Positions 14,051 through 34,892 of a stretch of DNA of 64,000 bases are shown in pieces (the first letter of the stretch is position 1; each line of letters opens with the position of its first letter). This DNA comes from Aequorivita viscosa. GTDB taxonomy: Bacteria; Bacteroidota; Bacteroidia; Flavobacteriales; Flavobacteriaceae. The stretch lies in the NCBI RefSeq assembly GCF_900106795.1, contig NZ_FNNS01000005.1, positions 1-64,000 on the forward strand, in the 5' to 3' direction. The notes under the pieces were generated by a model. It made no database searches, was not told the origin of the DNA, and worked only from the letters and a program-made list of their open reading frames with translations. A program made the position numbers and the translations under genes.

Positions 14051-14097
14051 TACGGCAATTGCCCTATTGTGACACTTTCTCCTTTGTGCCAATTTTG
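14051..14097 (+). promoter_or_regulatory. Palindrome-plus-promoter site 1 of the five-member regulon
   Basis: ATACGGCAATTGCC followed by CTATTG. The palindrome core GGCAATTGCC is at 14054-14063. The -33 TTG is at 14067-14069, then exactly 20 nt, then CAATTTTG (14090-14097) as a degenerate -7 element. The gene start is 50 nt further on. The same arrangement occurs at 15163, 17433, 27417 and 34846. Confidence 0.8.
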
Positions 14098-14147
14098 CTT
14101 CAACATTAATTACGTATCCGTTTTGACGGAGAATTAAACCTTAAATT

Positions 14148-14666
14148 ATGAAAACATTCAAAAAAACAATTTTAGTATTACTGGCTGTAGTTGCTGTAAG
14201 TATTACATCTTGTAGTAAAAGCGACGATGGTGGGGAAGACCCACAAGGCGGGACAGGTACTTTCTCGGCCAAAGTAGATGGAGCTACCTTTACACCTATT
14301 CAGGAAACAATTGTGGCCCAAATGTCAGGCTCAGGGGCGGCTCAGACTTTGGCTGTTAGCGCTGGTACTATGAACTCTGAGAATTTACAGATGATCATTG
14401 TTGGTTATGATGGTGTGGGTACATACGATTTGAATATGACCAATATAGGGACTTATAGCTATTTGCCAAATCCCAGCAATCCAGACCCGAGCACTGTGGT
14501 AATTTATTCTACTATCAATGGGCAAACTTCAAACGGGCAATTAAAAGTGTCAAGTGTTGATGGGAACGTTGTGAAAGGGACTTTTAGCTTTACAGGTTAT
14601 AATCTGAGCAATCCTTCAGAATCAGTTTCGGTAACTGATGGTCAATTCAATATTGAATTGAGATAA
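14148..14666 (+). CDS. Secreted lipoprotein, function unknown
   Basis: 172 residues. The lipoprotein signal peptide ends in SITSC, with Cys as the lipidation residue, then a Ser/Asp/Gly-rich linker (SKSDDGGEDPQGGTG). The rest is a single beta-rich domain beginning FSAKVDGATFTP and containing YDLNMTNIGTYSYLPNPSNP and VVKGTFSFTGYNL. This looks like the small DUF6252-type beta-sandwich lipoproteins common in Flavobacteriia, but the family assignment is tentative. It should sit in the outer or inner membrane. It is the first of the genes driven by the shared palindromic promoter. A strong terminator follows, with a MITE inserted just behind it. Confidence 0.8.
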   Translation: MKTFKKTILVLLAVVAVSITSCSKSDDGGEDPQGGTGTFSAKVDGATFTPIQETIVAQMSGSGAAQTLAVSAGTMNSENLQMIIVGYDGVGTYDLNMTNIGTYSYLPNPSNPDPSTVVIYSTINGQTSNGQLKVSSVDGNVVKGTFSFTGYNLSNPSESVSVTDGQFNIELR

Positions 14667-14794
14667 AACGAGATTTTTTTGTAGGCCGTGTAGTGAGCGA
14701 TTATTGAAAATTTCTATCAACGGTTCTTTAAATTGAATTTTAAACAATTAGAACGTATTTAAGAAAATCTCAAGTTTGAGGTTTTTACGTGGGG

Positions 14795-14831
14795 CCAGGG
14801 ATAAAACGATTGTTTTGTCTCTGGTTTTTTT
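14795..14831 (+). terminator. Terminator of the lipoprotein gene
   Basis: CCAGGGATAAAAC (14795-14807) pairs with GTTTTGTCTCTGG (14812-14824) with two G-T wobbles and a four-base loop, followed by seven T. Confidence 0.9.
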
Positions 14832-14835
14832 ATTG

Positions 14836-15087
14836 AATAAAGTCACTGTTGTCCGATTAAAATTTAGATATTCCTATTAAAGTCAGACCAACAAAGATTT
14901 TAGGCTATTTAGCTTAATGATGACCTTCCTTTTTATCTTATTTATAAACAAAACCAAAATATTAAAATGCAATCTGATTTAAAATATTTAAGTGCTCATT
15001 CACAATGGGTTACGTTTCTAGTCTTGGCTCTTGGTTCTTGTAGCGCAGCGGTCTTGTTTCTTTCCTCGGACAATACTGGAATAAAGT
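14836..15087. mobile_element. MITE copy 1 (236 bp) with 8-bp target-site duplication
   Basis: The element runs 14844-15079. It is flanked by AATAAAGT at 14836-14843 and again at 15080-15087. Left end CACTGTTGTCCGA; right end, read inward, CCAGTATTGTCCGA; the ends share the perfect inverted core TTGTCCGA. The 236-bp body matches 34339-34574 with only two substitutions by my reading. It has no transposase gene; a short frame across it is not a real gene. It was presumably mobilised by an IS transposase encoded elsewhere in the genome. Confidence 0.88.
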
Positions 15088-15123
15088 CCAAAATGTTGTT
15101 TTATAACCCAAACATTTTTTTTT

Positions 15124-15155
15124 ACTACCAACTACCAACTACCAACTACCAACTA
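15124..15155. repeat. Heptanucleotide tandem repeat upstream of the propeller gene
   Basis: ACTACCA is repeated four times plus a partial unit. It ends about 10 bp before the regulon palindrome at 15163. Copy-number change would alter DNA upstream of the operator but not the operator-promoter spacing. Confidence 0.8.
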
Positions 15156-15162
15156 CGGGAAA

Positions 15163-15209
15163 TACGACAATTGCCCTATTGATTCTGGTTTAATTCAGTA
15201 GCATTTTTG
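15163..15209 (+). promoter_or_regulatory. Palindrome-plus-promoter site 2 of the five-member regulon
   Basis: ATACGACAATTGCC then CTATTG. The palindrome core is at 15166-15175, TTG is at 15179-15181, then exactly 20 nt, then CATTTTTG (15202-15209). The start codon of the propeller gene is 27 nt downstream. Confidence 0.8.
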
Positions 15210-15236
15210 ACCTATAAAATTTAAAGAACCACGATT

Positions 15237-17102
15237 ATGAAAACCTCAATATTTTTTTACGCATTCCTTTGCTTTTTACTCGTTGTTGAAGCTCCAGCTT
15301 TAGCTCAACGCGCAGAGCAACCGGACTTTCGATACGACACTGGAGCTAAAATAAATGAAATGACATTAACTCAAGGGGGAACAATGGTGGTTGCTACAAA
15401 TGATGGTCTTGTGGGGATAAAGCCAGGTAGCAACCAACTATTGTTTAATTTTACTGAATATGGCCGTGTTAAACCAGAAGAATTGTTTTTTGTGCCAAAC
15501 GCACCTTATGTAATTGTAACCCAAGGTGGTTTCGCAAATATTACTGCCAAGAAAACGGTGATAGATTATATGTCTGGGCAAGTACTATTTAACACCGAAA
15601 GTAATGGATGGAAAGTGTCATACAGTTGTGATGTTAAAATGCCACAAAACAAATTAGTTGTAATTGGTCAACGCCAATCTGAAGAAAAATATGCAACTGC
15701 AGTTGGCGTCTACGATTTAAATACGGGTAAAGAAGATTATCGCTTTAATCTTGGCGAACCCGGAAAAGTTACTATGGGAGCAGGAATGCAACCTAGCGGT
15801 ACAGTTTTGTTGTTGAAAGATTATTTAATTGTTCCTACAACAAAAGGTTTAGTCGCAAAAAAAGCTCAGACAGGAGAAACGCTTTGGCAAAATGATATGA
15901 AGAATATCAATTGGATGGTAGCAGATGCTTCAGAACAGGAAATCTATGCTTTTGAAAGTGTTAATAACGGAAAAAACACACGTATCCATAAGGTTGGTGT
16001 AAATGGTGCTGAACTTTGGGAAGATGACCACAAAGTGAAAGGTCAAGTAGTAAATTTCGAGATTCTTCCAAAAGGCATTGCTGTGGTTAGTAACCAAAGC
16101 GATGGCGGAAGTAATAGTGTTTTTGCACGTAGCAACGAGTCAAATATCGCTTTTTTAAGCGCTGCTACTGGGGAAGATTTGTGGGATAAAGCTCCCAAAA
16201 CGAAAGGCTATGTGCAGCATTTTTATGTAATGGACGACGGAATTCTCTTCGGAATCTATCAAGGAGGTATCAATAAAATTTCATTTGAAGGAGAAACACT
16301 TTTCAAAAAGCCTTTAAAAACAGGTGAGGATATTCTAACAATGGCGCATACTCCGCAAGGTCTTATCTATATAACTTCAGAAGATGCAAATATTGTAAAT
16401 CTAGATACGGGCGAAGCAGTTTGGGGTAACCCGCTTAAATATAAACGAGCTGCCGCCGTAAGTTCTACTTTCGACAAGAAAAACAATCGTTTTTTATTAA
16501 GTGCAGATGAAACCCTGTATGCAGTCGATGCCACATCGGGCGAAGTTAGCACCTTGGCAAAAACAAAATTTGATGGCAAAGAAGATCCAACCCACGTAGA
16601 AGTTCGCAATGGCGGAATCTTGCTAACTAGCGATCAAAACATGTTACTTATGGATTGGAATGGCGGAACACAGTGGCAAGAATATTATCGCGCTCCAGGA
16701 AAGAGTGCAATGGGAGCAATTTTGGCAGGAGTGTCTGCAGTTGCTACTGCAACGGTTGCTGTGTCTGCAGCGCACTCAGGTATGCAAAATAAATTAGCAG
16801 GATATGACCAACAAGCCGAAACCGATGCTGCATTGGCTGGAGGAATGGCAGCTGCGAGTGGTGCTTCGGTTGTTGAAATGTTGAAACGCTTTAAAGCTAC
16901 CGCTGCCACTAAGAATGATCAATTTATCCTAACAAAACTTGATGACGGCGTTGGTTTAGTAAAAATTAGCAAAGACACAGGAAAAACTCATAAAGAAATT
17001 GTTTTAAAGGATAAAAAACCAGAATACATTGTTGATGAAATAGGCGGTATTCTATACTATAAAGCCGACAACAATTCTATTTATGCTTACAATTTAAAAT
17101 AA
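15237..17102 (+). CDS. Secreted PQQ-like beta-propeller repeat protein
   Basis: 621 residues with a signal peptide at 1-23 (FFYAFLCFLLVVEAPALA). Repeated WD/PQQ-type blades follow, with motifs such as VVATNDGLVGIKPGSNQLLF, LIVPTTKGLVAKKAQTGETLWQNDM, VNLDTGEAVWGNPLKY and LYAVDATSGEVSTLAKT. Near residue 490-545 the propeller is interrupted by an Ala/Gly-rich hydrophobic insertion (MGAILAGVSAVATATVAVSAAHSG), which might touch a membrane. The C-terminus returns to propeller-like strands. No PQQ-enzyme catalytic motif was seen, so it is probably a structural or binding protein in the periplasm or at the surface. It is a single-gene transcript between the regulon promoter and a terminator at 17164. 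Confidence 0.82.
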   Translation: MKTSIFFYAFLCFLLVVEAPALAQRAEQPDFRYDTGAKINEMTLTQGGTMVVATNDGLVGIKPGSNQLLFNFTEYGRVKPEELFFVPNAPYVIVTQGGFANITAKKTVIDYMSGQVLFNTESNGWKVSYSCDVKMPQNKLVVIGQRQSEEKYATAVGVYDLNTGKEDYRFNLGEPGKVTMGAGMQPSGTVLLLKDYLIVPTTKGLVAKKAQTGETLWQNDMKNINWMVADASEQEIYAFESVNNGKNTRIHKVGVNGAELWEDDHKVKGQVVNFEILPKGIAVVSNQSDGGSNSVFARSNESNIAFLSAATGEDLWDKAPKTKGYVQHFYVMDDGILFGIYQGGINKISFEGETLFKKPLKTGEDILTMAHTPQGLIYITSEDANIVNLDTGEAVWGNPLKYKRAAAVSSTFDKKNNRFLLSADETLYAVDATSGEVSTLAKTKFDGKEDPTHVEVRNGGILLTSDQNMLLMDWNGGTQWQEYYRAPGKSAMGAILAGVSAVATATVAVSAAHSGMQNKLAGYDQQAETDAALAGGMAAASGASVVEMLKRFKATAATKNDQFILTKLDDGVGLVKISKDTGKTHKEIVLKDKKPEYIVDEIGGILYYKADNNSIYAYNLK

Positions 17103-17163
17103 AATACGACTAGCCAGATTGTTTTCTGAAACAAAAATGAAGTGAGGAGCATTTTTGATTCAT

Positions 17164-17190
17164 AAGCCCCATATTTAACTGTGGGGCTTT
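17164..17190 (+). terminator. Terminator of the propeller gene
   Basis: AAGCCCCA (17164-17171) pairs with TGGGGCTT (17182-17189) and runs into a T-rich tail (TTTACTTTTT). Confidence 0.85.
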
Positions 17191-17432
17191 TACTTTTTAT
17201 ACATTAAGTAACTCTGAAACTTGTAAAAACATCTTTAAAGTTAAAATGAGACGAAGTCTATGCGTTAACAAAAGACTTATTATAACCATAAACCGAATTA
17301 TTTGCCCTTGTTGACCGACATAGATTTCTGGTTATGAATTGATAGAAATAGAGAGCTAATAAATCGATTTTGTTTGCTATGGTGGGTTGTTTACAGAGTC
17401 TTTCACTTAAACACATCACTATTTTCGAATTA
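17191..17432. other. Intergenic stretch with no recognised feature
   Basis: About 240 bp between the propeller-gene terminator and the regulon palindrome at 17433. It is AT-rich with no plausible gene and no similarity to the other repeats in the window that I could see. Confidence 0.5.
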
Positions 17433-17479
17433 TACGGCAATTGCCTTATTGAATAAAGCACATCAAGAAATGATATTTG
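17433..17479 (+). promoter_or_regulatory. Palindrome-plus-promoter site 3 of the five-member regulon
   Basis: ATACGGCAATTGCC then TTATTG. The palindrome core is at 17436-17445, TTG is at 17449-17451, then exactly 20 nt, then GATATTTG (17472-17479). The TTG within this -7 element opens the upstream extension of the reading frame, which argues that the true start codon is 17525. Confidence 0.78.
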
Positions 17480-17524
17480 TATAACATGTTTCTAAACATT
17501 TATCAATCTTTAAAAGAATCTATT

Positions 17525-18979
17525 ATGAAAACAAATTCCTTATTCACAAAAATTAGCTTAGTGCTATGTGTTTTGGCTACGACCTTAGCAGCAAAAGCAA
17601 ACAACGTTATTGTTGCCAATACAGCCGTATCGGGCAGTGATATTACTTTCGACATTAGCTGGGAAAACAGCTGGAACTCAAATATAGCACCTGCAAACCA
17701 CGATGCGGTATGGGTGTTTGTAAAGTATCAAGATTGTGCTACAAACATTTGGTATCACGCAGATCTTAGCGACACATCAGCAGATCATACTGCCGCATCT
17801 CCCCTACAAGCAGATGCTGTAGCAGATGGCAAAGGTGTTTTTCTTCGTCGTAGCGCCTTAGGGGGTGGGAATATTGCTCCCACAGCTGTTTCATTAGCAA
17901 TGAACATACCGGCTGGAACCTATAATTACAAGGTTTTTGCTATCGAAATGGTATACATTCCACAAGGTGATTTTGAAATTGGTGACGGAACTTCTACAAA
18001 CACCTTTAATAGTATTACTGTTACGGCCGCCTCGCAATCGGGTGGGATTCCTGCCGGTACTATTGGAGGTTCTTCTGTAACTGTTCCCGCAACTTTCCCA
18101 ATGGGCTATAATTCATTTTACAGCATGAAGTATGAAATTACCCAACAACAATACGTAGATTTTTTAAATACACTTACCTACGATCAACAAGTTACGCGTC
18201 AAGGAACAGACCCAATCAATGCACCAGGAACAAAAGCGTTTTCTCCTGGTTTAGGTTTTAGGAATAGTATAGAAATACTTGAATCTGGTAATAATAACGT
18301 GTTGCCAGCAGTTTTCGCTTGTGATCTTACAGATGGAATTCCTGATAACGTGGACGATGGCCAGAATATTGCCATGAACTTTTTAGGCTGGGGAGATCTT
18401 AGTGCTTATTTAGATTGGGCTGGATTACGTCCAATGTCAGAACTGGAATTTGAAAAAATTTGTAGAGGACCAGAAGCGAGAGTTGCAGGAGAATATCCTT
18501 GGGGTACTACAGAAATCTTTGCGTATAACTCAAATAATATCGTAGCATCCACTAAAAACAAACCAGATGAAACTGTTGCCACTGTTAACAATGGATCATC
18601 TTTTTACGGACTTGGATATTCACACATCAATTCTTTTGGACCTTCGCGCGCAGGTATTTTTGCACGTAGTACTACTGGAAGAGCTTCTTCGGGAGCTGCT
18701 TATTATGGAGTAATGGAAATGGCTGGAAATTTATCGGAACGTCCTGTTACCGTTTTTACTGCTGAAGGAGCCGCATTTACAGGAAATAATGGCGATGGCA
18801 CGCTAACTAATACAGGTGAAGCCAACCAAGCAAGCTGGCCAGCTCCAGATACTGCTTTAGGTTCTGGTTTCAAAGGGGGAGATTGGTCTACAGCTGCGAC
18901 TAATTTGAGAACTTCTCAACGTAGCGGCACTGCTTCAGTAGCACGTAACCAAACATACGGTGGGCGCGGTGTTCGTTAA
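17525..18979 (+). CDS. Secreted FGE/SUMF1-fold protein without the catalytic cysteines
   Basis: 484 residues from ATG 17525, which gives a clean signal peptide (MKTNSLFTKISLVLCVLATTLAAKA). The in-frame upstream extension overlaps the promoter. An N-terminal beta domain (about 26-150: VIVANTAVSGSDITFDISWENSWN) is followed by a formylglycine-generating-enzyme fold: MVYIPQGDFEIGDG, YEITQQQYVDFLNTL, LDWAGLRPMSELEFEKICRGPE, MEMAGNLSERPV and GFKGGDWSTAATNLRTSQRSG. The two active-site cysteines of true FGE, expected after the GG-W block, are absent, as in GldJ/GldK-like members, so a structural or binding role is likely. It lies 78 bp upstream of the giant Ig-repeat gene, separated only by a hairpin (about 18998-19025) without a T-tract, so the two may be co-transcribed. 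Confidence 0.85.
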   Translation: MKTNSLFTKISLVLCVLATTLAAKANNVIVANTAVSGSDITFDISWENSWNSNIAPANHDAVWVFVKYQDCATNIWYHADLSDTSADHTAASPLQADAVADGKGVFLRRSALGGGNIAPTAVSLAMNIPAGTYNYKVFAIEMVYIPQGDFEIGDGTSTNTFNSITVTAASQSGGIPAGTIGGSSVTVPATFPMGYNSFYSMKYEITQQQYVDFLNTLTYDQQVTRQGTDPINAPGTKAFSPGLGFRNSIEILESGNNNVLPAVFACDLTDGIPDNVDDGQNIAMNFLGWGDLSAYLDWAGLRPMSELEFEKICRGPEARVAGEYPWGTTEIFAYNSNNIVASTKNKPDETVATVNNGSSFYGLGYSHINSFGPSRAGIFARSTTGRASSGAAYYGVMEMAGNLSERPVTVFTAEGAAFTGNNGDGTLTNTGEANQASWPAPDTALGSGFKGGDWSTAATNLRTSQRSGTASVARNQTYGGRGVR

Positions 18980-18997
18980 TCTCTAATTTGATGTGTA

Positions 18998-19057: not shown

Positions 19058-22000
19058 ATGAAAACAACAATAACAACATTGGTTGTTTTGGTTTGCTTTT
19101 TCTTAGTTCCTAGTTCGCTGTTTGCACAGTATGAGGGTGGTATAGCCGATGGGTCTGCTCACGACCACCTCAATAACACGGTTTGTGCAACGCCCGCTCA
19201 GTTTTACGCTTATTTTGGCGGATCTGGTGATGGCGCAGGAATGGAAAGCTTACAAATTACAGCCTGTGGTGCTCCTTCACAATTCTATGCCTATCAAGGC
19301 GGGGTTGGCGATGGAAGTGCCCTAGAAACAATAAACGCAGTCACTTGTGATGCTCCAAGTCAGTTTTATGCCTATTTCGGAGGTGATGCTGCTGGTTCCG
19401 CTGTTGATGCGATAGATGCTGTCGTGTGCGATACACCAACTCAATTCTATGCCTATTTTGGCGGTGATGGCGATGGGTATGGTGCCGATGGAAACCTAAG
19501 TTGCCCTGTAGATCCGCCTGTGGCAGATTTTATGGCAGATAACACAACTATTTGTGTTGGAGATACTGTACAGTTTACAGACACTTCCACAAATGTACCA
19601 ACGGTGTGGGAATGGATCTTCGAAGGTGGTACACCAGCAACTTCAGGATTGGAAAATCCAGAGGTGGTTTATAATACGCCTGGCACGTACGATGTTACTT
19701 TAAAAGCGGTTAATCAGTTTGGAACAAATACTAAAACCCTAACCGATTATATTACGGTAAACGCTATTCCTACCATTGCAACTACCACTCCAGGAACGCG
19801 CTGCGATGCTGGTATTGTTACATTAGAAGCAACTGCAAGCGCTGGAACCTTGAGTTGGTTCAACGATGAAACAGGCGGTACAGCTTTAGGAACTGGTACA
19901 AGTTTTAATACTCCGTCAATTTCAGAAACTACTACATTCTATGTGGAAACTGAAAATAATGGATGTATTTCTACAAGAGTAGCTGTAATTGCAACTGTTA
20001 ATGATACACCTACCATTACAAATACAACTCCAGGAGAGCGTTGTGGGCCAGGTTCGGTTCAGTTAGCCGCTCAAGCTAGTTCGGGTAATATTAAATGGTA
20101 TGATGTGGCTGCTGGCGGAACTTCATTAAGTAACACTGGTACATTTAATACGCCTTCAATTGCTACAACAACAACTTATTATGTTGAAGTTAGTGCGAAT
20201 GGCTGTATTTCACCTAGAACAGCAGTTGTGGCTACAATAAATAGTCAGCCTGCAATAACTTCTACCACAGACGCATCACGTTGCGGCCCTGGTAGTGTAA
20301 CGCTATTGGCTCAATCAGATTTCGGAACGATAAAATGGTATGATGCCGCAACTGGAGGAAATTTAATAACTACGGGCACTAGTTTTACTACACCATCTTT
20401 AGCAAATACAAAAGTGTATTATGTAGAAGCTGCGCAAGGTTCTTGTAGTTCGTCTCGTATAGCTGTTACAGCTGAAATCAATGCTTTTCCTACGATTACG
20501 AACACAACTCCTGCGAGTAGATGTGGTGCGGGAAGCGTAACATTAACTGCCACTGCAAATGCTGGAACGCTAAGTTGGTTTAACGTGGCCTCCGGTGGAA
20601 CTGTTTTGGGATCAGGTACGAGTTTTACAACGCCTTCAATTACCGAAACAACAAGTTTTTATGTTGAATCAAACAATGGAGGATGTATTTCAACACGGGA
20701 AGAAGTAATTGCAACAGTTAATTCTGCTCCTTCGGTTACTAATACTACACCTGCTAGTCGATGCGGAACAGGATCTGTAACTTTAATGGCAACAGCAAGT
20801 TCTGGAACATTGAGTTGGTTTGCTACAGCTGCTGGCGGAACCGTTTTAGGAACTGGAACAAGCTTTACTACACCTGTAATTGCAACAACCAGTACTTTTT
20901 ACGTGCAAGCACAAGCATCTGGTTGTACCTCGACGCGAAATGCTGTGGTAGCTACTGTAAATAATACTCCGGTAATTACCAACACTACACCTGCAAGTCG
21001 TTGCGGAGCTGGAACAGTTACTTTAACAGCTACTGCTAATTCAGGAACACTAATTTGGTTTAATTCAGCTACCGGTGGAACTGCTTTGGGAACAGGAACT
21101 AGTTTCACTACACCTTCCATAACAACCACAACTTCATACTATGTGGAGGCATCAACAGCATCTTGTACTTCAGTTCGGACCGAAGTTGTAGCAACCATAA
21201 ATGCGTTGCCAACTATTACTAGCACGACTCCTGCTGGGCGTTGTGATTCAGGAACGGTAACGTTAATGGCTACAGCAAACGCAGGGACTTTGAGTTGGTA
21301 TAATACCGCAACAGGTGGATCCGCTTTAGGAACTGGCACTAGTTTTACAACTCCAGTTATTACTTCGACTACTACTTTCTATGTAGAAGCTAATAACAAC
21401 GGATGTATTTCAAGTAGAACTGCTGTAATTGCAACAGTGAATGATGCTCCAGAAATTACAGGGACAATACCCGCCGAACGATGTGGCGCTGGAAGTGTAA
21501 CACTATCGGCTGTTGCAGATTACGGAACTATTAACTGGTTTACGAGTGCAAGCGGTGGTACTTCTATATTTACGGGTGCTAGTTTTACAACACCGAGTAT
21601 TTCAGTTACAACTACCTACTATGTTGCTACAAATTCAGGAAGTTGTACGAGCAATCGTGTACCCGTAACTGCAACTATTAATTCAATTCCTGCTATTACA
21701 AGTACTACTCCTGCGAGTAGATGCGATACAGGAACGGTAACCTTAATGGCAACTGCAAGTTCAGGAACATTGAGTTGGTTTAATGTGCCCACTGGCGGAA
21801 CTGCCTTAGGAACAGGTACTAGCTTTACGACACCTGTTATCTCGACTACGACTAATTTTTATGTAGAATCGAATAATGGTAGTTGTACCTCTACTAGAGT
21901 AAAAGTCATTGCAAGTGTAAATGACACTCCATCAATTACAGCTACAACCCCAGCAAGTCGTTGTGGTTCAGGCACAGTGACTCTTGGTGCAACAGCGAGT

Positions 22001-25364: not shown

Positions 25365-27359
25365 ATGTATTTAAAACACAAACGTCTTTTTATCATTTTT
25401 CTGTTAGTGAGTGTTTCACTCTGCTCGCAGTCTGCACAGAAGAAAATCGACAGCCTTATGCAGGTTGCCGAAGTATCTAATGATTCTGTTAGACTTCGGA
25501 TATATAATAAAGTCAGTTTTTACTACATCTTCAATAATCCCGAAAAAGCAAGGGATCTTCTTCTAAAAGGAATAGAACAAGCTAAAACAAAAAAAGTTTC
25601 ATTCTCAGAGGCCGAACTGGTTAATACCTACGGAATTTATAACGACGTTTCAGGAAAATCAGATTCAGCAAAATATTATTTTGAAAAAGCATTAGCGCTA
25701 AGCGAAGCCCACAACTATAGAATAATTACCGTAATGATAATTAATAACCTGGGCATGTTCCATTGGAATAAGGGAAATTATCAGGTAGCATTGGATTACT
25801 TTTTTCAGGCATTAGAGATCAATAAAGAGAATTCTGTTGATTCTGGCGATGGAACTTACTTCAACAATATCGGACTTATTTACCAGGAAATGGGACAAAG
25901 TGATAAAGCACTGGAATATCACAAAAAAGCACTTGAAGTTCGGGAGCGATACAATAATAAAAGTGAAATAGCCACCTCTTTATCCAATATTGCCATAGTG
26001 CTGAAAGCGCAAGGAAATTATGTCGAATCTGAACAGAATTTCAAAAGGGCGATTGAAATGGCAAAGGCCGAAAATGAGCTGGGCAAATACTACGACGCCC
26101 TTGACGGTTTAGGCGATACTTATCTCGAGCAAAATCAACCACAACTAGCGATACCACTTTTGGAAGAATTGCTGGAAGGAAGAAATGAAAATAATATTGA
26201 CAGAAGATCAAATCTGAATACTATTTCAAATTTAATACGAGCCTTTAATGCTACTGGCAATTTAACCACGGCTTTAAAATATGTTGAAAAGGGAAATGCT
26301 TTTCTAAATGAATTTCCCGATAAAAAAACGGCTACAATTGAGTTTTATCAACACGCTTCCGAAACTTATTTCAGACTCAATAATCCTGAAAATGGAGCTG
26401 CTTATTTACAACAAGCGCTTTTAATGAAAGAAGATATTTTCTCGAATGAAAACGCAGATGCAATTGCAAATCTCGAAACCAAATTTAAGGTTGCTGAAAA
26501 AGAAAGAGATCTTGCCGAAACCCGCGCTAATCTTGCCGAAAGCGAATTGGAAAATGAGCAAAAAAATATTTTCATTTTTGGAATGATAGCCTTGGCAATC
26601 GTTCTTACACTTTTGGGTTATCTTTTTTACAACCAACAAAAATTGAAAAACAGTCAGTTGCGAAAGGAAAGTGAGCTGAGGTCTGCCTTGGCAAAAATTG
26701 AAACTCAAAATCAATTGCAAGAACAACGACTTCGGATTTCGCGAGATCTTCATGACAATATCGGATCCCAACTTACTTTCATCATTTCGTCTATAGACAA
26801 TTTGAAATTTGGATTGAAGGACGCCGATGCATCGATTAAAGGCAAATTAAAATACATCAGCAATTTTACCTCACAAACCATTTATGAACTTCGGGATACA
26901 ATTTGGGCAATGAACAAAACCGATATTTCGGTGGAAGATTTGCAAGCCCGTATTTCAAATTTTATTGAAAAGGCCAAGATAGCGAGCGATGTTAATTTTC
27001 AGTTTAATGTGGCTAACAGTGTTTTACAAGAAGCTCAATTTAATTCGGTTCAAGGCATGAATATTTATAGAATCATTCAAGAAGCAGTAAACAACGCATT
27101 AAAATATTCGGATGCCACGCAGGTTTCAGTTGAAATTTCTAAGCTGTCCGATTCTAATTCTGAAGATTCCTGTAAGGAGAAGGAAAAAAAATTTTCAAAT
27201 AAAGTTGAAATTCGAGATAACGGAAAAGGTTTCAATATGGATGAAATATGCTTTGGGAATGGGCTTCAAAACATTAAAAAACGAGCGACCGATTTAGGAG
27301 GAAAAGTTAAAATCACTTCCGAAGTAGGCAAGGGTACTATGGTTCAACTTCTATTTTAG
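25365..27359 (+). CDS. TPR-containing sensor histidine kinase (HisKA_3 type)
   Basis: 664 residues. A signal peptide or first membrane segment (1-24) leads into a periplasmic array of tetratricopeptide repeats (about 30-370; e.g. NNLGMFHWNKGNYQVALDYF, NNIGLIYQEMGQSDKALEYH). A transmembrane helix (FIFGMIALAIVLTLLGYLF, about 402-422) and a short coiled coil follow. The HisKA_3 dimerisation domain has phosphorylatable His463 in ISRDLHDNIGSQLTF, and an HATPase domain follows (NNALKYSD; DNGKGF; GNGLQNIKKRA). This class normally signals to NarL/LuxR-type regulators, and the only such regulator in the window is at 35062. It is closely similar to the kinase at 27859. The region between NALKYSD and DNGKGF carries a Ser/Lys-rich insertion not seen in the paralogue. 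Confidence 0.9.
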   Translation: MYLKHKRLFIIFLLVSVSLCSQSAQKKIDSLMQVAEVSNDSVRLRIYNKVSFYYIFNNPEKARDLLLKGIEQAKTKKVSFSEAELVNTYGIYNDVSGKSDSAKYYFEKALALSEAHNYRIITVMIINNLGMFHWNKGNYQVALDYFFQALEINKENSVDSGDGTYFNNIGLIYQEMGQSDKALEYHKKALEVRERYNNKSEIATSLSNIAIVLKAQGNYVESEQNFKRAIEMAKAENELGKYYDALDGLGDTYLEQNQPQLAIPLLEELLEGRNENNIDRRSNLNTISNLIRAFNATGNLTTALKYVEKGNAFLNEFPDKKTATIEFYQHASETYFRLNNPENGAAYLQQALLMKEDIFSNENADAIANLETKFKVAEKERDLAETRANLAESELENEQKNIFIFGMIALAIVLTLLGYLFYNQQKLKNSQLRKESELRSALAKIETQNQLQEQRLRISRDLHDNIGSQLTFIISSIDNLKFGLKDADASIKGKLKYISNFTSQTIYELRDTIWAMNKTDISVEDLQARISNFIEKAKIASDVNFQFNVANSVLQEAQFNSVQGMNIYRIIQEAVNNALKYSDATQVSVEISKLSDSNSEDSCKEKEKKFSNKVEIRDNGKGFNMDEICFGNGLQNIKKRATDLGGKVKITSEVGKGTMVQLLF

Positions 27360-27416: not shown

Positions 27417-27464
27417 ATAGGGCAATTGCCCTATTTCAATTTTGAAGGAAGGTTTTTATTTTTA
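27417..27464 (+). promoter_or_regulatory. Palindrome-plus-promoter site 4 of the five-member regulon
   Basis: ATAGGGCAATTGCCCTAT (27417-27434) is a perfect 18-bp palindrome. The -33 equivalent is TTT (27434-27436), then exactly 20 nt, then TATTTTTA (27457-27464). The start of the small membrane protein gene is 24 nt downstream. This site has the best palindrome of the five. Confidence 0.8.
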
Positions 27465-27488
27465 GGCTTTTAAACTAATTTTTAAAAT

Positions 27489-27734
27489 ATGTTTCTGCAA
27501 ACTGTTATAACCATCGTACTGCTGCTTTCCATTGTTGGAATAGCTATTTGGTTTTATAATAGGAGGAACGAAATAGAACGAATACACCGTCAAACTATTT
27601 CGGAATTGGAAAGAGCTATAGGCACTAACGGAAACCAGATAAGGTATAGAAATTCAAACCTAAATGGCTATGATTTCCAACAGTACAATCTTGATGAGGC
27701 ATTAGTTGTTCAGTCAGATATTGAAATTCATTAA
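27489..27734 (+). CDS. Small single-span membrane protein, unknown function
   Basis: 81 residues. An N-terminal transmembrane helix (TVITIVLLLSIVGIAIWFY, about 5-23) is followed by a positively charged juxtamembrane stretch (NRRNEIERIHR), a short helix and a polar tail rich in Asn, Tyr and Gln. I recognise no family. It has its own regulon promoter 24 nt upstream and lies between the two paralogous sensor kinases, 124 bp upstream of the second. That suggests a role connected to kinase signalling, for instance as an accessory membrane subunit, but this is inference from position only. Confidence 0.7.
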   Translation: MFLQTVITIVLLLSIVGIAIWFYNRRNEIERIHRQTISELERAIGTNGNQIRYRNSNLNGYDFQQYNLDEALVVQSDIEIH

Positions 27735-27858: not shown

Positions 27859-29742
27859 ATGAAACTTCTTGTTAGACTTTTTTTACCTATTTGCCTATTC
27901 ATTGCTGCAAGTTGTTTTTCGCAAACGAACGTTGAGAAAATAAATGATTCAATTATATCTGTCTATAAAACAGATCCTCAAAAGTCGTTAGCCTTTTTAC
28001 TTAAACTAAATAAAAACATAGCAAATAGTAAGCGCTATGATAAAGGTTTAACAACAAATAATATTGCGATAATTTACAGGGAGCTTGGAGATTTTCAAAA
28101 TGCCAAAAAACTTTCGCAAAAAGCCCTGACAATAACAGATGACCAAAAAATAAAAGCATCGGCTTATAATAATATTGGTGCTGTTAATAGAAGTTTAGGA
28201 TTGTACGAGGAAGCATTGGAGAATTATCTTGAGGCATTATCTATTTATGAAAAAAGTAATGACCGTAAAAGCGAAAATACGGTTATTAACAACATCGGCA
28301 ATGTTTATAGCTATTTGGGCATGACCGATAAGGCACTCGAATATTTTAATAAAGCCAAAGAAAATTCAGTTAAACTGAAGGATAAAAAAGGTCAGTCAGA
28401 AGCATTCAACAACATCGCCATTATCTATGCAAATGAAGGTAAACTACAACAAGCATTAGATTATTTTAAATTTTCGCTAGATGTAGAAAACGATTTAAAC
28501 GATAAAAAAGGTATTGCCGAATCGGCCAATAATGTGGGCGTGGTTTTTTACTATATGCAAGAAATAGATTCTGCTTTGTATTATATCGAACAGGCGGTAA
28601 CCATTGAAAAATCAATAAAAAACTATACAGCTATTAGTTCGAGCTATAATAATATTGCAACAATCTTAATCGAAAATAACAGGATAGAGGAGGCTGAAAA
28701 ATATATAGATAGTGCATATAGTATCGCAAACAACGCGAAAATCACTGCTGATATTGAGGCAGCATTAGAAACCTATTCAAATTATTTCGAAGCAAAAAAC
28801 GATTTAAAATCGGCACTAGCATATCAAAAAAAACTCATTGCTTTTAAGGATAGCACCTTAACAATTGAAACAAATAATAAGGTTGCTGAGTTAGAAATAA
28901 AATACGAGACCGAAAAAAAGGAAAATCAAATCTTACAACAACGCGCCCAACTAGCCGAAAAAGATTTAGAAGTCCGAAGAAAAAACACACTTATCTACGG
29001 AAGTCTAGGATTGGCATTGGTTCTCGCACTATTAGGGTATTTATTTTACAGTCAGCAAAAACTTAAAAACCGTCAACTTCAAAAGGAATCCGAATTAAAA
29101 GCTGCATTGGTAAAAATTGAAACCCAAAACAAGCTACAGGAACAACGTTTGCGTATTTCCCGCGATCTTCACGATAATATCGGTGCCCAACTTACTTTTA
29201 TTATTTCCAGTATTGATAATTTGAAGTATGGATTTACAGATATTAGTGAGAAACTAGGGTCCAAACTTAGTAGCATTAGCGGTTTTACACAACAAACAAT
29301 TTATGAACTGCGCGATACTATATGGGCAATGAACAAGGAAAATATAACGCTGGAAGACTTGCAGGCGCGAATTGCGAACTTTATTGAACACGCTAAAAAC
29401 GCTTCAGAACAAACCGACTTTTCGTTTACTATAGATAATAGCGTTACTGAAGCACACGATTTCTCATCGGTAGAAGGAATGAATATTTACAGAATCATCC
29501 AAGAGGCAGTTAATAACGCATTAAAATACGCTTCGGCAGATAAAATTGAAGTGAATATTTTAAAAGTTGAAAATCAATACCGAATTGAAATAATTGATAA
29601 CGGCATAGGTTTTAATCAAGCTGCAATTGATATGGGCAATGGCTTGAACAATATGAAAAAACGGGCTCGAGAAATTGGTGGAAGTATAGAAATTACTTCA
29701 AATGCAGGAGATGGGACGCGTATTGTTTTGATTTTGAAATAA
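27859..29742 (+). CDS. TPR-containing sensor histidine kinase (HisKA_3 type), paralogue
   Basis: 627 residues, same architecture as the kinase at 25365. It has a signal peptide (1-21, LFLPICLFIAASCFS), TPR array (about 30-330; NNIAIIYRELGDFQNAKKL, NNIGNVYSYLGMTDKALEYFNKA), transmembrane helix (TLIYGSLGLALVLALLGYLF), HisKA_3 domain with His438 in ISRDLHDNIGAQLTF, and HATPase motifs NNALKYAS, DNGIGF and GNGLNNMKKRA. The cytoplasmic halves of the two kinases are far more alike than the TPR sensor halves, indicating duplication followed by sensor divergence. It may be read from the regulon promoter at 27417 through the small membrane protein gene. It converges, with a 10-bp gap, on a minus-strand gene. 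Confidence 0.9.
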   Translation: MKLLVRLFLPICLFIAASCFSQTNVEKINDSIISVYKTDPQKSLAFLLKLNKNIANSKRYDKGLTTNNIAIIYRELGDFQNAKKLSQKALTITDDQKIKASAYNNIGAVNRSLGLYEEALENYLEALSIYEKSNDRKSENTVINNIGNVYSYLGMTDKALEYFNKAKENSVKLKDKKGQSEAFNNIAIIYANEGKLQQALDYFKFSLDVENDLNDKKGIAESANNVGVVFYYMQEIDSALYYIEQAVTIEKSIKNYTAISSSYNNIATILIENNRIEEAEKYIDSAYSIANNAKITADIEAALETYSNYFEAKNDLKSALAYQKKLIAFKDSTLTIETNNKVAELEIKYETEKKENQILQQRAQLAEKDLEVRRKNTLIYGSLGLALVLALLGYLFYSQQKLKNRQLQKESELKAALVKIETQNKLQEQRLRISRDLHDNIGAQLTFIISSIDNLKYGFTDISEKLGSKLSSISGFTQQTIYELRDTIWAMNKENITLEDLQARIANFIEHAKNASEQTDFSFTIDNSVTEAHDFSSVEGMNIYRIIQEAVNNALKYASADKIEVNILKVENQYRIEIIDNGIGFNQAAIDMGNGLNNMKKRAREIGGSIEITSNAGDGTRIVLILK

Positions 29743-29752: not shown

Positions 29753-30424
29753 CTAAAAAAACGGTTCTATTTTAGAAACGTAAAAAACATAATTGCCCGC
29801 TAATATTTTCCAAACTCCTTCGTAACTCATAAGTTGCCCTTCAACAGGTTTAGCGTAGGTTGCCGTTTTTGGCACATTTTCAAAGTTTATCAAAACGCCA
29901 TTTCCATATTTGTTTGAATAGCATGTATCCGTAACCTTAGCATCTATACTTTTGGCGACACCGTCCGCAACCATTTCGGCAATGGTAAAGAAACAGCCTG
30001 TTTTAGTATTCGAGTTATACTGCAATACAATTCCGCCTAAGGTTTCTGTTTTATCGCTTCTTCTTTTTAACTTCCAGCCATCTCCAATTTGCTTTAAATC
30101 GCCATCGATTTCAAATACCCAAATGTGGTTATCTTCGTAATAGTCTATTTGATAGGCGTTAACATCATCAGCGATTACATAAAAACTAAATATACAATTG
30201 GTGTCACTTTGCCCGTTCCAATTTATGGTTTCGATTACTTCAAAATCAGACCAATTTGAATCGCCTTTATTTGCGAATTTCACATCTTCGGCAATTTCAT
30301 TATTTACCACGAACATCACCGAGAATTCATTGTTGTCATAAACTTCGTACTCTTGCGAAATAGCATTTGTAATTGCCATAAGGAACGAGAGCAGTACGAT
30401 AACATTTTTTCTATTTAAAATCAT
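29753..30424 (-). CDS. Secreted protein of unknown function, long paralogue
   Basis: 223 residues with a signal peptide (about 1-23, VIVLLSFLMAITNAISQ). The N-terminal half (24-125: EYEVYDNNEFSVMFVVNNEIAEDVKFA ... NWNGQSDTNCIFSFYVI ... QIDYYEDNHIWVFEIDGDLKQIGDGWKL) is shared with the neighbour at 30541-30915. The C-terminal half (126-223), with three further Cys (CFFTIAEMVADGV; DTCYSNKYG), is unique to this copy. I recognise no family. The two genes are tandem on the minus strand with a strong terminator between them. Probably periplasmic or secreted. Confidence 0.75.
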   Translation of the reverse strand: MILNRKNVIVLLSFLMAITNAISQEYEVYDNNEFSVMFVVNNEIAEDVKFANKGDSNWSDFEVIETINWNGQSDTNCIFSFYVIADDVNAYQIDYYEDNHIWVFEIDGDLKQIGDGWKLKRRSDKTETLGGIVLQYNSNTKTGCFFTIAEMVADGVAKSIDAKVTDTCYSNKYGNGVLINFENVPKTATYAKPVEGQLMSYEGVWKILAGNYVFYVSKIEPFF

Positions 30425-30480
30425 TTTGAGTTTTTATAATGTGGTAAAAGCTATCTTGGAATATGTGCATTTTTCATTGA

Positions 30481-30532: not shown

Positions 30533-30540
30533 AAAAATAA

Positions 30541-30915
30541 TTATCTCAGGTTTAGCTTCCAGCCATCGCCAATTTGTTCTAAATTGTCATCGATTTGAAA
30601 TACCCAAATATGATTGTTTTCGTAGTAATCTATTTGATACGCGTTAATTTCACCATCAATTACATAAAATGTGAATAAACAGTTCGTGTCACTTTGCCCG
30701 TTCCAGTTTTTGGTTTCGATTACTTCAAACCCGGTCCATTGTGAATCTCCTCTCGTTGCAAATTTTACATCGTGAGCAACTTCATTTTTAACGACAAACA
30801 TTACTGAAAAATCTTGCCCGTCATACACTTCGTAGTTTTGTGAGTAAGCACTTACAGTTGTAGCCAATATTACAACCATTGTGATAAAAAGCTTTTTAAA
30901 AGTTCTTGTTTCCAT
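30541..30915 (-). CDS. Secreted protein of unknown function, short paralogue
   Basis: 124 residues with a signal peptide (about 1-25, LFITMVVILATTVSAYSQ). It is homologous to the first 125 residues of the protein at 29753-30424, with nearly the same blocks: YEVYDGQDFSVMFVVKNEVAHDVKFA, NWNGQSDTNCLFTFYVI, INAYQIDYYENNHIWVF and IGDGWKLNLR. It stops exactly where the longer paralogue continues into its C-terminal half. The clean stop and strong terminator suggest either that this is the basic form or that a C-terminal domain was lost. Function unknown. Confidence 0.75.
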   Translation of the reverse strand: METRTFKKLFITMVVILATTVSAYSQNYEVYDGQDFSVMFVVKNEVAHDVKFATRGDSQWTGFEVIETKNWNGQSDTNCLFTFYVIDGEINAYQIDYYENNHIWVFQIDDNLEQIGDGWKLNLR

Positions 30916-31059
30916 AATAATTAAGTTTTGGTTATATGCATTGCCTTCTTGACAACATCACTGCAAACTTATGACGGAAATGAACTTCGAACAGGGTAAA
31001 AATTCTGCATTTATATGGAAAAATTCCGCATAAATGGGTTGCGTACTTTTTTTAAATGT

Positions 31060-34000
31060 CTAAATAGTAGTGTGTTCTGAAGGGGCAACACCAAAGTGCC
31101 GTTTAAACACCTTAGAGAAATATTGAGGGTCTTCAAAACCAACGGCCCAAGCAGATTCGGCCACGTTATTCCCTTCTCTAAGAAATTGGAGAGCCTTATT
31201 TAGTCGCGAAACTTTAATTAAATCGGAAGGGGTTTGTCCAGTAATTGCTTTCAATTTTCGGGTTAATTGACTTTGACTTAAACAAGCTATTTCTGCCAAG
31301 TTTCCTACACTAAACTTTGGATCTGAAATATTTTCGTCAATTGCGGTTTTTACTTTCTTAACAAGCTCAAAGTCTCTTTTTGGCAGTCCTTTAATTTCGT
31401 TTTCTTTGGGAATTCCACCTAGGTTAAACTTACTCTGAATGTTTTGAAGTAGCTTAAATACATTTCGAATTCGCAATCGAAGCTCTTCCACCGAAAAAGG
31501 CTTTTCTAAATATGCGTCGGCGCCCATTTCTATTCCTTTAATTTTATCGCTTTGATCTGTCATTCCCGTAAGTAAGATGATTGGAATATGCGAAGTAGCA
31601 TCTGTGTTTTTTAGATGTTGACACAATTCAAAACCATCGGTCTTTGGCATCATAACATCGCTAATAATTAAATTGGGCATGTATTTTTCGGCAAGCCTGA
31701 CTCCTTCTGTGCCGTTTGAGGCTTCAATCAACTCAAATTCATCACCTATACTATTACAAATAAATTTTCTTAGTTCTGCTTGGTCTTCTACAACTAAAAT
31801 AAGTGGTTTTTCTCCATTGGAAATAGGGGTAGCGGTTGCTATTTCAAGAGCTTCTACTGGATGGCATTTTAGAAATACCGTAAAGCAAGCCCCTTTTTCT
31901 GGATTATTACTCACTATGGCATCGCCTTGATGTAGCATTGCTAATTCTTTTACTAAAGACAAACCAATTCCAGAGCCCTTTTGTAATCTACTTGAAGGTG
32001 AATCTATTTGATAAAAACGATCGAAAATTTTAGGAATATCTGTTTCTAAAATTCCTGCTCCCGAATCTGATACCGATAACTTTAATGTCTCGTCAGTAAA
32101 GTCGATAGTGGTTCTAACTTCACCATTATTTGGGGTGAATTTAATTGCGTTTGAAAGTAAATTTGAAACGATTATTTGCAACGCATCTGCCGAAAAACTC
32201 CATATTTGGGCTTCAAGGTTTTGGCGTGCGTTTTCAGTAATGTTAACTTGAAAACTTAGATTTTTCTTAGTGGCAAACGATTCAAAAGAATAAATATAAC
32301 CTTGTAATTTTTCGAGTAAGTTTCCTTCTTCGTAAATTAAAACATACTTGCCATTTTCCATTTTAGATAAATCCAAAAGCTGATTTACCAGCTCCAATAA
32401 CCGATCGCCGTTTTGGTTCATTGCGGCTAATGGTTTTATATTACTGGATTCTAAGTCGTGGTTAAGCACTTCAATGTCGCCTTTAATCAATGTTAAAAGC
32501 GTTCTAAACTCGTGCGAAATATTCGCGATAAACTTCGATTTAAATCGTTCTGTTTCTTTTATGGCTTCGGCTTCACTTCGTTTTAACTCTAAATTCTGTC
32601 TTTCAATTTCAATCTTCTTGCTTCTCAATCTGAATAAATAAATTACTGCAATTGTTAAAAGAACCATCAGGCCTAAACCAATAATGGCGGCATTTCGTTC
32701 AACTTGCTTCTTTTTTAATTCCTGACTCGTAAGTAAATCTTTTTGTTGTTGCTCAGACTTTAATTGTGCTGCTTTTTTTTCGGCTTCGTATAAAAACGCT
32801 AATTGTGCTGCTTTTTGGGTTTCCCGACTATTGTAAAAATCTTCTGAATTTTTTTGATAGTTAAAAGCCGATTCAAAATCTCCAACGGCCGCTTCGGCAT
32901 TAGATAAAAGCTTGTACTCGGCAAATAAATTTACGCCAGTTTCCATCTTTTTTTGCATTTCGATAGCTTTAAGCAACCATTTTTTAGCTTCTTTTGGTTG
33001 TTCCAGTTGTAAATTAATTTCGCCTAATTGCTTGCTTAAAATTGCTTCAAAATAACTTAAATTGTATAGTGTAGCTAAACGCATCGTTTTTTCGGCAATA
33101 ATTAATGCTTGTGCTAAATTTGCTGTTCTTAAATGTGCCTCGGCTATAAAATAATTTGCTTTAACAATTCCGCCTACACTTTCGATTGTTTCGCTAATTT
33201 TTAGTGCTTTGTTGCCATATTCCAATGCTTTTTCATATTCTTCCGAAGCAATAAAAGCCCGTCCCAAAAGACTGTATAGTTCTGAAATATCTACCTGATT
33301 ATTCAGTTTTTGCTCAATTTCGAGAGAACGATTATAATATTCTTTTGCTTTATCAAGGTTTCCAGAATCATCTAACACCTCGCCAATACTCCTGTACATC
33401 CAAGATACTCCCTGTTCATTGTTCATTGAAGTGTAATTTTCAAGGGCTTTGTAATAGCACAACAACGAAGCAGGATATTTTCCTTGTAAATAAAGCTGTA
33501 GACCAACATTGGCGGTAGATAGCGTTTCTCTCGAAATATCGCCCACTTTTCTAAAAACATTTTGGGAGCGCATAAAATATTTCATGGCGTCTTGATACCT
33601 ATTTTGCGAAGAATATATATGAGCAATATTGTCTGCAGAATTTCCAATGCCATAGTTGTCGCCTACTTCTTCTCTTATTTTTAGAGCTGTAAAGTGGTTT
33701 TTTAGTGCGAGAGCCAAATTTCCTTGCTCGTAATATATGTGCGCTAAGTTATCGTAGGCATCACCTTTTCTAATCGGTTCATTTTCCGTTTCGCATAAAA
33801 TAATAAGCTGTTGGGTGTGTGCAATAGCTTCTGGGTACATTTTTAGCTCTCTATACGTGCTGGCGAAGTTTAGTAAAACAGCAATTTCACCTTTCGGATA
33901 CGTTAAATTATCGGTGATTAGCTTGGCTTCATTGGTATATAACAACGATTTTTCCAGTAAGCCTACCTTTCTAGATTCGTAGCTTAATTGATTTAATAAA

Positions 34001-34140
34001 TCTACCTTTTCTATTTCAGATGAAGCTTTTTTATACGAAACCAACAAGGAATCAACTATTTGTAGGTTTTCCGATTGCGAAAGCATGTGCGAAACGCTAC
34101 ACAGGAAGAGAATTACAATTAATAAACGTTTATATCGCAC
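31060..34140 (-). CDS. Hybrid two-component system protein with TPR sensor and AraC output
   Basis: 1026 residues. A signal peptide (1-22) is followed by periplasmic TPR repeats (about 30-440) and a transmembrane helix (NAAIIGLGLMVLLTIAVIYLF, about 482-502). Then come HisKA with His543 in ISHEFRTLLTLI, HATPase (NLLSNAIKFTPNNG; DSGAGI; GSGIGLSLVKELA), a receiver domain with phospho-acceptor Asp828 in LIISDVMMPKTDGF and the KPFS block, and a C-terminal AraC-type HTH (about 925-1026; CLSQSQLTRKLKAITGQTPSDLIK; AWAVGFEDPQYFSKVFKRHFG). Sensor, kinase, receiver and DNA-binding output are all in one chain, as in Bacteroidota hybrid systems. The H-box lacks the usual Pro after Arg-Thr (RTLLT in place of RTPLT). 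The target genes are unknown; the secreted paralogues just downstream are candidates. Confidence 0.92.
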   Translation of the reverse strand: MRYKRLLIVILFLCSVSHMLSQSENLQIVDSLLVSYKKASSEIEKVDLLNQLSYESRKVGLLEKSLLYTNEAKLITDNLTYPKGEIAVLLNFASTYRELKMYPEAIAHTQQLIILCETENEPIRKGDAYDNLAHIYYEQGNLALALKNHFTALKIREEVGDNYGIGNSADNIAHIYSSQNRYQDAMKYFMRSQNVFRKVGDISRETLSTANVGLQLYLQGKYPASLLCYYKALENYTSMNNEQGVSWMYRSIGEVLDDSGNLDKAKEYYNRSLEIEQKLNNQVDISELYSLLGRAFIASEEYEKALEYGNKALKISETIESVGGIVKANYFIAEAHLRTANLAQALIIAEKTMRLATLYNLSYFEAILSKQLGEINLQLEQPKEAKKWLLKAIEMQKKMETGVNLFAEYKLLSNAEAAVGDFESAFNYQKNSEDFYNSRETQKAAQLAFLYEAEKKAAQLKSEQQQKDLLTSQELKKKQVERNAAIIGLGLMVLLTIAVIYLFRLRSKKIEIERQNLELKRSEAEAIKETERFKSKFIANISHEFRTLLTLIKGDIEVLNHDLESSNIKPLAAMNQNGDRLLELVNQLLDLSKMENGKYVLIYEEGNLLEKLQGYIYSFESFATKKNLSFQVNITENARQNLEAQIWSFSADALQIIVSNLLSNAIKFTPNNGEVRTTIDFTDETLKLSVSDSGAGILETDIPKIFDRFYQIDSPSSRLQKGSGIGLSLVKELAMLHQGDAIVSNNPEKGACFTVFLKCHPVEALEIATATPISNGEKPLILVVEDQAELRKFICNSIGDEFELIEASNGTEGVRLAEKYMPNLIISDVMMPKTDGFELCQHLKNTDATSHIPIILLTGMTDQSDKIKGIEMGADAYLEKPFSVEELRLRIRNVFKLLQNIQSKFNLGGIPKENEIKGLPKRDFELVKKVKTAIDENISDPKFSVGNLAEIACLSQSQLTRKLKAITGQTPSDLIKVSRLNKALQFLREGNNVAESAWAVGFEDPQYFSKVFKRHFGVAPSEHTTI

Positions 34141-34330
34141 AGCTACGTTGATGGATTGTTTTTCGAGATTGTTTTATAAATCAATTACGCGCCCGATGCG
34201 GTTGATTGTTGAATCTCCATACAACATTACTGAATTAAATTTAAATTCTATCAATTGATTGTCGTGTTATTCTGAGCTAGCTTTACGTTAAAAAGCAGTT
34301 AAGGAGGCTTTTGTTTTACGAAAAATGAGG

Positions 34331-34582
34331 TTTTATTTCACTGTTGTCCGATTAAAATTTAGATATTCCTATTAAAGTCAGACCAACAAAGATTTTAGGC
34401 TATTTAGCTTAATGATGACCTTCCTTTTTATCTTATTTTTAAACAAAACCAAAATATTAAAATGCAATCTGATTTAAAATATTTAAGTGCTCATTCATAA
34501 TGGGTTACGTTTCTAGTCTTGGCTCTTGGTTCTTGTAGCGCAGCGGTCTTGTTTCTTTCCTCGGACAATACTGGTTTTATTT
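34331..34582. mobile_element. MITE copy 2 (236 bp) with 8-bp target-site duplication
   Basis: The element runs 34339-34574, flanked by TTTTATTT at 34331-34338 and again at 34575-34582. It has the same ends and body as copy 1; the two substitutions I found are in the TTTATAAAC/TTTTTAAAC and CATTCAC/CATTCAT segments. Near-identity with different target duplications means two recent, independent insertions. Confidence 0.88.
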
Positions 34583-34590
34583 ATAATCAT

Positions 34591-34865
34591 TAATGTTCGG
34601 GTAAAATATTTCAAAATTCCGTTTAGCCATAGCCGAAAAGGGCTTAAAGCATTTTATAATATACTAGTTCGCTATTAAGTTCACTACTATAATTTATTAA
34701 ATATGAAGCCCTGCTTAATCAATTTAACTTAATTGTAAGTGAAGTAAGAATCAGGCCTGCCACGGCACGATAGGTTGGTCTTAGGTCTTTCAGCACAGCA
34801 GTCAAACACCTTAGTCGGGCAAGATTAAATTATAATAAGAATAAATACGCCATTTGCCCTATTGG
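34591..34865. repeat. Diverged intergenic repeat, copy B
   Basis: Partner of 6411-6665. The internal hairpin is CCTGCC (34756-34761) with GATAGG (34769-34774), a changed but partly compensated version of the copy A stem. Its right end coincides with the regulon palindrome; copy A ends in a decayed version of the same sequence (AATACGTCAGTTTG). MITE copy 2 lies at its left edge. Confidence 0.68.
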
Positions 34866-34892
34866 AAGCTATTTTTTAATGTATCATCTTTG
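34846..34892 (+). promoter_or_regulatory. Palindrome-plus-promoter site 5 of the five-member regulon
   Basis: ATACGCCATTTGCC then CTATTG. The palindrome is weaker here. TTG is at 34862-34864, then exactly 20 nt, then CATCTTTG (34885-34892). It lies upstream of the LuxR-type response regulator, with a leader of about 165 nt. Confidence 0.75.

Follow-up and report, generated by a model that had tools for sequence, protein, structure and literature searches.

Five promoters of identical layout point to a probable local, autoregulated two-component regulon with a NarL-like operator in Aequorivita viscosa

A 64,000-nt stretch of the Aequorivita viscosa genome (hereafter the window) was found to carry five plus-strand sites between 14051 and 34892 with one common layout: a palindrome whose two inverted heptamers flank a 2-bp gap (a 7-2-7 form, 16 bp overall, consensus TAcGGCA-AT-TGCCcTA), an abutting TTG or TTT, exactly 20 nt, and an octamer NAnnTTTR. 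We consider, with a probability of roughly 0.8, that these are the operator-promoters of a local autoregulated two-component regulon activated by the NarL/LuxR-type response regulator encoded at 35062-35709. The original prediction had described the five sites as identical in their palindrome/-33/20-nt/-7 arrangement and as each lying upstream of a gene; direct reading and measurement of the sequence confirmed the arrangement, and all five sites fall between likely genes of the open reading frame (ORF) list.

Site 1 (14051-14097) comprises the operator TACGGCA-AT-TGCCCTA at 14051-14066, TTG at 14067-14069, the 20-nt spacer and the -7 box CAATTTTG at 14090-14097, with a predicted start near 14102. 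Site 2 (15163-15209) has the operator TACGACA-AT-TGCCCTA at 15163-15178, followed by TTG, the same spacing and CATTTTTG at 15202-15209 (predicted start near 15214), while site 3 (17433-17479) has TACGGCA-AT-TGCCTTA at 17433-17448, again with TTG and 20 nt, and GATATTTG at 17472-17479 (predicted start near 17484). At site 4 (27417-27464) the operator TAGGGCA-AT-TGCCCTA at 27418-27433 is followed by TTT at 27434, 20 nt and TATTTTTA at 27457-27464 (predicted start near 27469), and here positions 27417-27434 form a perfect 18-bp palindrome. Finally, site 5 (34846-34892) contains TACGCCA-TT-TGCCCTA at 34846-34861, TTG, 20 nt and CATCTTTG at 34885-34892; its predicted start near 34897 would leave a 165-nt leader. 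The two half-sites match at 6, 5, 6, 7 and 5 of 7 positions in sites 1 to 5, respectively.

Such an arrangement is real and well beyond chance and, in all likelihood, functional. When the window was shuffled 60 times with its dinucleotides preserved, palindromes with up to three mismatches appeared at a mean of 0.017 per shuffle against nine readings observed on both strands, and the full layout appeared in none of the 60 shuffles against five times in the window. A search of the whole 3.54-Mb genome for the full pattern with at most one mismatch returned five matches, which are the five window sites, and none in the reversed control. The original prediction was to be given up if the pattern turned up across the genome as often as chance allows, or inside coding DNA; both outcomes were looked for and neither was found. 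A regulon scattered over the genome was ruled out for this organism, all five full sites being inside the window, and the regulon in this genome is local, belonging to one gene cluster.

The distance between palindrome and promoter was measured over 497 distinct palindrome contexts, counting both-strand readings of one palindrome and requiring no -7 box. NAnnTTTG was found 23 nt after the palindrome (TTG plus 20 nt) in 164 contexts, while every other offset between 10 and 35 had four or fewer; upstream of the palindrome the same octamer gave one minor peak, with 14 at one offset. The sigma-A motifs SM1-3 drawn from start-site data of Flavobacterium psychrophilum likewise contain a TAnnTTTG -7 box, placed at -12 to -5 (PMC9723704), and the centre of the operator is therefore predicted at about -43.5. 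Relative to the predicted start, the operator is thus near -42 to -45 at a fixed spacing from the core promoter, and would extend from about -51 to -36, leaving the -33, the -7 and the +1 free. Among the lipoprotein promoters, 76 of 86 have a -7 box that begins with C, as do 38 of 39 beta-propeller promoters, while T comes first in 28/46 kinase and 27/34 regulator promoters, which also lean towards TTT and a closing A. This suggests a tight promoter class for surface proteins and a leakier one for signalling genes. The loss of the first T, which the original prediction took as a sign of activator dependence, may well be so, and its long conservation as C in the lipoprotein promoters strengthens the case.

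If the response regulator acts as an activator here, a signal sensed by one or more TPR kinases would lead to its phosphorylation, and a dimer would bind the inverted repeat, ideally TACGGCA-AT-TGCCGTA, next to the -33 element. The bound regulator would contact RNA polymerase, by analogy with NarL, and activate sigma-A promoters that are weak because of a degraded -7 box, in most cases with C for T at its first base. Transcription would rise for the kinase and regulator genes and for three exported proteins (lipoprotein, beta-propeller and FGE-domain), and probably also for a giant Ig-repeat protein with a type IX secretion system (T9SS) tail. Direct binding, phosphorylation, activation in preference to repression, the operon membership of the genes and a role in surface or adhesion functions are what we infer from this arrangement.

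The same regulator might also bind the palindrome and repress, sitting against the -33 element and hindering RNA polymerase. The palindrome does abut that element, and at frdA a 7-2-7 site close to the transcription start serves NarL for repression (PMC4549865). Repression is nevertheless unlikely in our judgement, as the predicted operator spares the -33, the -7 and the +1, its distance from the -7 box does not vary, as expected for polymerase contact, the non-consensus first base of that box has been kept over long evolution, and NarL activates from the equivalent position (PMC7419079).

Conservation was considered in the genus and the family. The full pattern with at most one mismatch was present in 28 of 28 Aequorivita genomes, the reversed controls all being 0; the regulator gene was present in all 28 as well, 85-92% identical, and a palindrome (up to four mismatches) stood upstream of it in 27 of the 28 loci, L058 being the one without. 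Among 299 genomes of the family, the strict Aequorivita-type pattern matched 39, and a more general pattern with at most one mismatch matched 70, with reversed controls of 0 among the genomes listed. Most family sites belong to one syntenic cluster, which consists of a Riean_0653-family lipoprotein, a beta-propeller protein, one or more TPR sensor kinases and the NarL/LuxR-type regulator. A search with up to three mismatches to the Aequorivita form had suggested that Bizionia, Winogradskyella, Algibacter and their relatives are without the operator; this was wrong, as ATACG...CGTATTG-N20-NAnnTTTG is kept there with diverged inner bases. A candidate regulon with an activator just upstream of the -33 element, as first suggested, is supported by the genome specificity, the 28 genus genomes, the conservation in the family and the fixed spacing.

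The regulator and the promoter pattern also occur together. With presence of the regulator called at E ≤ 1e-75 and at most 10 candidates scored per genome, both were found in 66 of the 299 genomes, the regulator only in 9, the pattern only in 4 and neither in 220 (Fisher p 5e-51, without correction for relatedness); 224 genomes had no regulator match, and 20 of these are among the genomes listed. Ninety of 108 sites were no more than 25 kb from a regulator gene. Five of the nine regulator-only genomes (G032, G059, G065, G134 and G199) had a diverged operator (up to three mismatches) of the same spacing before the lipoprotein or the regulator gene, and G228 had one before another gene. As for the pattern-only genomes, G131 and G137 carry a different palindrome, TACGTAACGTTACGTA, while G340 and G090 are 84% and 93% complete and have cluster targets behind the site. 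In four of four lean clusters examined, the coding-strand ORFs of at least 60 amino acids (aa) that start with ATG comprise four genes, for the lipoprotein, a small protein, a TPR kinase and the regulator, and the last is therefore the only recognisable DNA-binding protein in them.

These data bear on the further idea that a different transcription factor, encoded elsewhere, binds the sites and that the two-component genes are merely among its targets. The window does encode, at 31060-34140, a TPR hybrid kinase whose output domain is of the AraC type, and some sites are found away from the cluster or in genomes that have no regulator (counts below). Yet the pattern co-occurs with this regulator across the family, no second gene for a recognisable DNA-binding protein is present in the four lean clusters, a 7-2-7 operator is what a GerE-family protein would be expected to use, and a search of this genome at E ≤ 1e-30 returned no regulator match beyond the gene itself, and hence no close paralogue. 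We rate such a factor as slightly less probable still than repression.

In order of domains, the regulator (35062-35709, plus strand), the proposed binder of all five operators, has a receiver (Response_reg, PF00072, 84.8 bits against a cut-off of 30.2) and a C-terminal GerE/LuxR helix-turn-helix (PF00196, 65.9 bits against 23.5), and so belongs to the NarL/FixJ (LuxR-type) response regulators. It aligns over its full length with the solved structures of its relatives VraR and NarL; its named relatives among the matches listed are Aequorivita species. Pairings of a NarL-type regulator with a TPR sensor kinase are widespread in Bacteroidota. Two sensor kinases of the HisKA_3 type are encoded nearby (25365-27359 and 27859-29742), and a kinase adjoins the regulator in most loci. 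The operator has the NarL-like form, with two inverted heptamers, a 2-bp gap and TAC...GTA ends, and its bases vary with the two residues that open the recognition helix, which are either PS/PA or xG. All 60 of the PS/PA loci have C as base 6, against 10 of the 26 xG loci, and the covariation of helix and operator gives a Fisher p of 5e-11 over 86 loci, some species being present twice.

Several observations weigh against activation of these promoters by the regulator at 35062-35709. The covariation of helix and operator was not significant once relatedness was allowed for, with three supported independent contrasts (means of 1.4 in the same and 0.0 in the opposite direction for base 6, and of 1.9 and 0.8 for base 8); it was therefore dropped as proof of binding and is no more than suggestive. 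Fourteen of the 108 sites are far from a regulator gene or on another contig, and four are in genomes without the regulator. G132, G191 and G251 (the last a 3.2-kb stretch) have the regulator and no convincing operator at up to three mismatches in the stretch examined. Inheritance of the cluster as a unit, without binding, could by itself produce the co-occurrence. Over 80 wider loci, a kinase gene with an operator of its own occurs in only 22 of 72 and a regulator gene with one in only 25 of 79; outside Aequorivita, direct autoregulation is therefore seldom evident, separate kinase and regulator promoters being mainly a trait of that genus. Moreover, the -7 box of site 5 is 169 nt from the regulator ATG in this genome, against a median of 29.

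The target genes were classified over a set of 253 sites, all with the -7 box at the required 20 nt and with duplicate contexts counted once. The first gene behind the site encodes a lipoprotein in 82 cases, a TPR kinase in 46, a beta-propeller protein in 39, a response regulator in 34 and an FGE-domain protein in 7, the rest forming smaller groups. Ten proteins of these smaller groups were scanned; PQQ propeller, FG-GAP, OmpA with PD40, T9SS-tailed, outer-membrane beta-barrel, MORN and CHAT proteins were among them, and three of the ten had no match. In the 80 wider loci an operator promoter preceded 52 of 55 lipoprotein genes, 15 of 36 beta-propeller genes and 6 of 6 FGE genes; because of the first of these counts, the lipoprotein is the core and most conserved target. 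Taken across the family, we lean, with less confidence than for the local regulon, towards an undescribed two-component regulon wide in Flavobacteriaceae, in which a NarL-type regulator with a 7-2-7 operator would control its own kinases and exported surface proteins (lipoprotein, beta-propeller, OmpA-like, T9SS-tailed). Its helix and operator would change together between lineages (SPST with TACGNCA half-sites; SxGT with TACGTAATT or TACGNCATT), while C would be retained at the start of the -7 box as a built-in lock.

A 237-bp interspersed repeat has copies at 14843-15079 and 34338-34574 that are 99% identical; genome-wide it gives 18 matches, which differ in length. The two copies precede sites 2 and 5 and end before their palindromes, so that the operator is not included, although the presence of a multicopy repeat 272 bp upstream of site 5 calls for caution there. 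The idea that the sites arose through duplication of a single DNA segment was rejected, since this only long repeat nearby stops short of the palindromes, and the original view that the sites are not copies of one stretch holds. That the palindrome is itself a structural or recombination element, a chance match or part of an interspersed repeat is very improbable: the repeat near two sites is the point in its favour, and it has no palindrome, while the layout is kept with unrelated spacers before orthologous genes across genera, is absent from the shuffles in full form, and gave 166 sites against 2 in reversed sequence over the 80 regulator loci.

The target and kinase genes of the cluster are all on the plus strand. 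The first (14148-14666) encodes a lipoprotein of 172 aa of the Riean_0653/DUF6252 family (Pfam PF19765; NCBIfam NF052634 at 70.0 bits, above the cut-off of 57), and the next (15237-17102) an exported PQQ/BamB-like beta-propeller protein of 621 aa (PF13360). The FGE-sulfatase-domain gene (PF03781) was read as 17525-18979, with its start at the ATG at 17525, downstream of promoter 3; the mechanical ORF start at 17477 would lie inside the -7 box. A giant surface protein of 2075 aa (19058-25285) has 22 Ig-like repeats and a PKD domain (Pfam) and a T9SS sorting tail (TIGR04183), and is probably transcribed from promoter 3, as judged from a 78-bp gap. Kinase 1 (25365-27359; TPR, HisKA_3, HATPase_c) is probably a member of the same operon. 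The gene at 27489-27734 encodes a protein of 81 aa whose N-terminus is hydrophobic and for which neither Pfam nor NCBIfam gave a match, and a gene for 90-94 aa occupies the equivalent position in each of the four lean clusters. Kinase 2 (27859-29742), with the same TPR, HisKA_3 and HATPase_c composition, is the conserved partner adjoining the regulator. The two kinase genes have about 520 bp in common at 72% DNA identity (26592-27106 and 29011-29528) and are therefore likely duplicates. Between this kinase and the regulator, the minus-strand gene at 31060-34140 combines the TPR hybrid kinase, receiver and AraC-type output in one protein of 1026 aa. Two neighbouring minus-strand ORFs (29753-30424 and 30541-30915), without a Pfam match, have a 293-bp stretch in common at 80% identity.

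The arrangement resembles that of Escherichia coli NarX/NarL at ogt and yeaR-yoaG, where a GerE/NarL-type regulator meets a 16-bp 7-2-7 repeat with TAC...GTA ends. NarL binds such inverted heptamers as a dimer (PMC4549865), and at ogt it activates from a 7-2-7 site abutting the -35 region and centred at -44.5 (PMC7419079), against the predicted -43.5 or so here. The architecture itself is already known as NarL-type activation, and would here operate on a Bacteroidota promoter. The two systems differ in the half-site interior (TACGGCA here, TACCCCT in an engineered NarL site; PMC4549865), in the sigma-A promoter (here a -33 TTG and a -7 TAnnTTTG), in the TPR kinases that stand in place of NarX, and in scale, a local cluster being compared with the global NarL regulon. 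The best NCBIfam match of the regulator is indeed NarL, at 130.4 bits, below the equivalog cut-off of 250, and it is therefore not NarL proper.

FimR of Porphyromonas gingivalis is a LuxR-type regulator. Both kinases match the model of its partner FimS best in NCBIfam, at 79.8 and 97.1 bits, far below the equivalog cut-off of 600, and so are not assigned to FimS. FimS/R activates the surface fimbriae fimA and mfa1 (PMC5431200), whereas the present cluster has a lipoprotein, a beta-propeller protein and an Ig-repeat protein as its proposed targets, and not fimbriae. Because this nearest named Bacteroidota system by kinase score activates fimbriae, a surface-protein role for the present regulon is at most plausible by analogy. 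NCBIfam names the family of the first target after Riean_0653 of Riemerella anatipestifer; transposon insertions in Riean_0653 lowered haemolysis, the recombinant protein was not haemolytic, and no regulation of Riean_0653 is described in the portions of that paper considered here (PMC7881567). The F. psychrophilum study reports sigma-factor motifs, and the terms LuxR, palindrom and histidine kinase are absent from its main text (PMC9723704). In the open-access literature, a scope that excludes most subscription journals, no paper was found on this regulon, its operator or its regulator, nor a described operator for a NarL-type regulator with a TPR kinase in Flavobacteriaceae. If the regulon is as proposed, its operator is defined to the base, its promoters have a set geometry and its regulator can be named; it also offers a handle on a conserved lipoprotein family whose founder Riean_0653 affects a phenotype in another genus, and a natural series for how regulator and operator change together.

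Besides the sites described above, a related but distinct palindrome (TACGTAACGTTACGTA and variants) was observed with an unchanged TTG-N20--7 arrangement at places distant from the regulator gene, at G131:C2:75630, G137:C51:20926, G087:C4:617074, G087:C20:133, G087:C29:14798, G078:C5:139131, G206:C1:2718557 and G139:C5:95879; it is possibly the operator of another NarL-type regulator. Furthermore, an out-of-cluster site of identical sequence was seen in two Aequorivita genomes (G016:C1:2734206 and G024:C12:92660). In G016 it precedes a gene for a 298-aa exported protein, which is a possible distant target.

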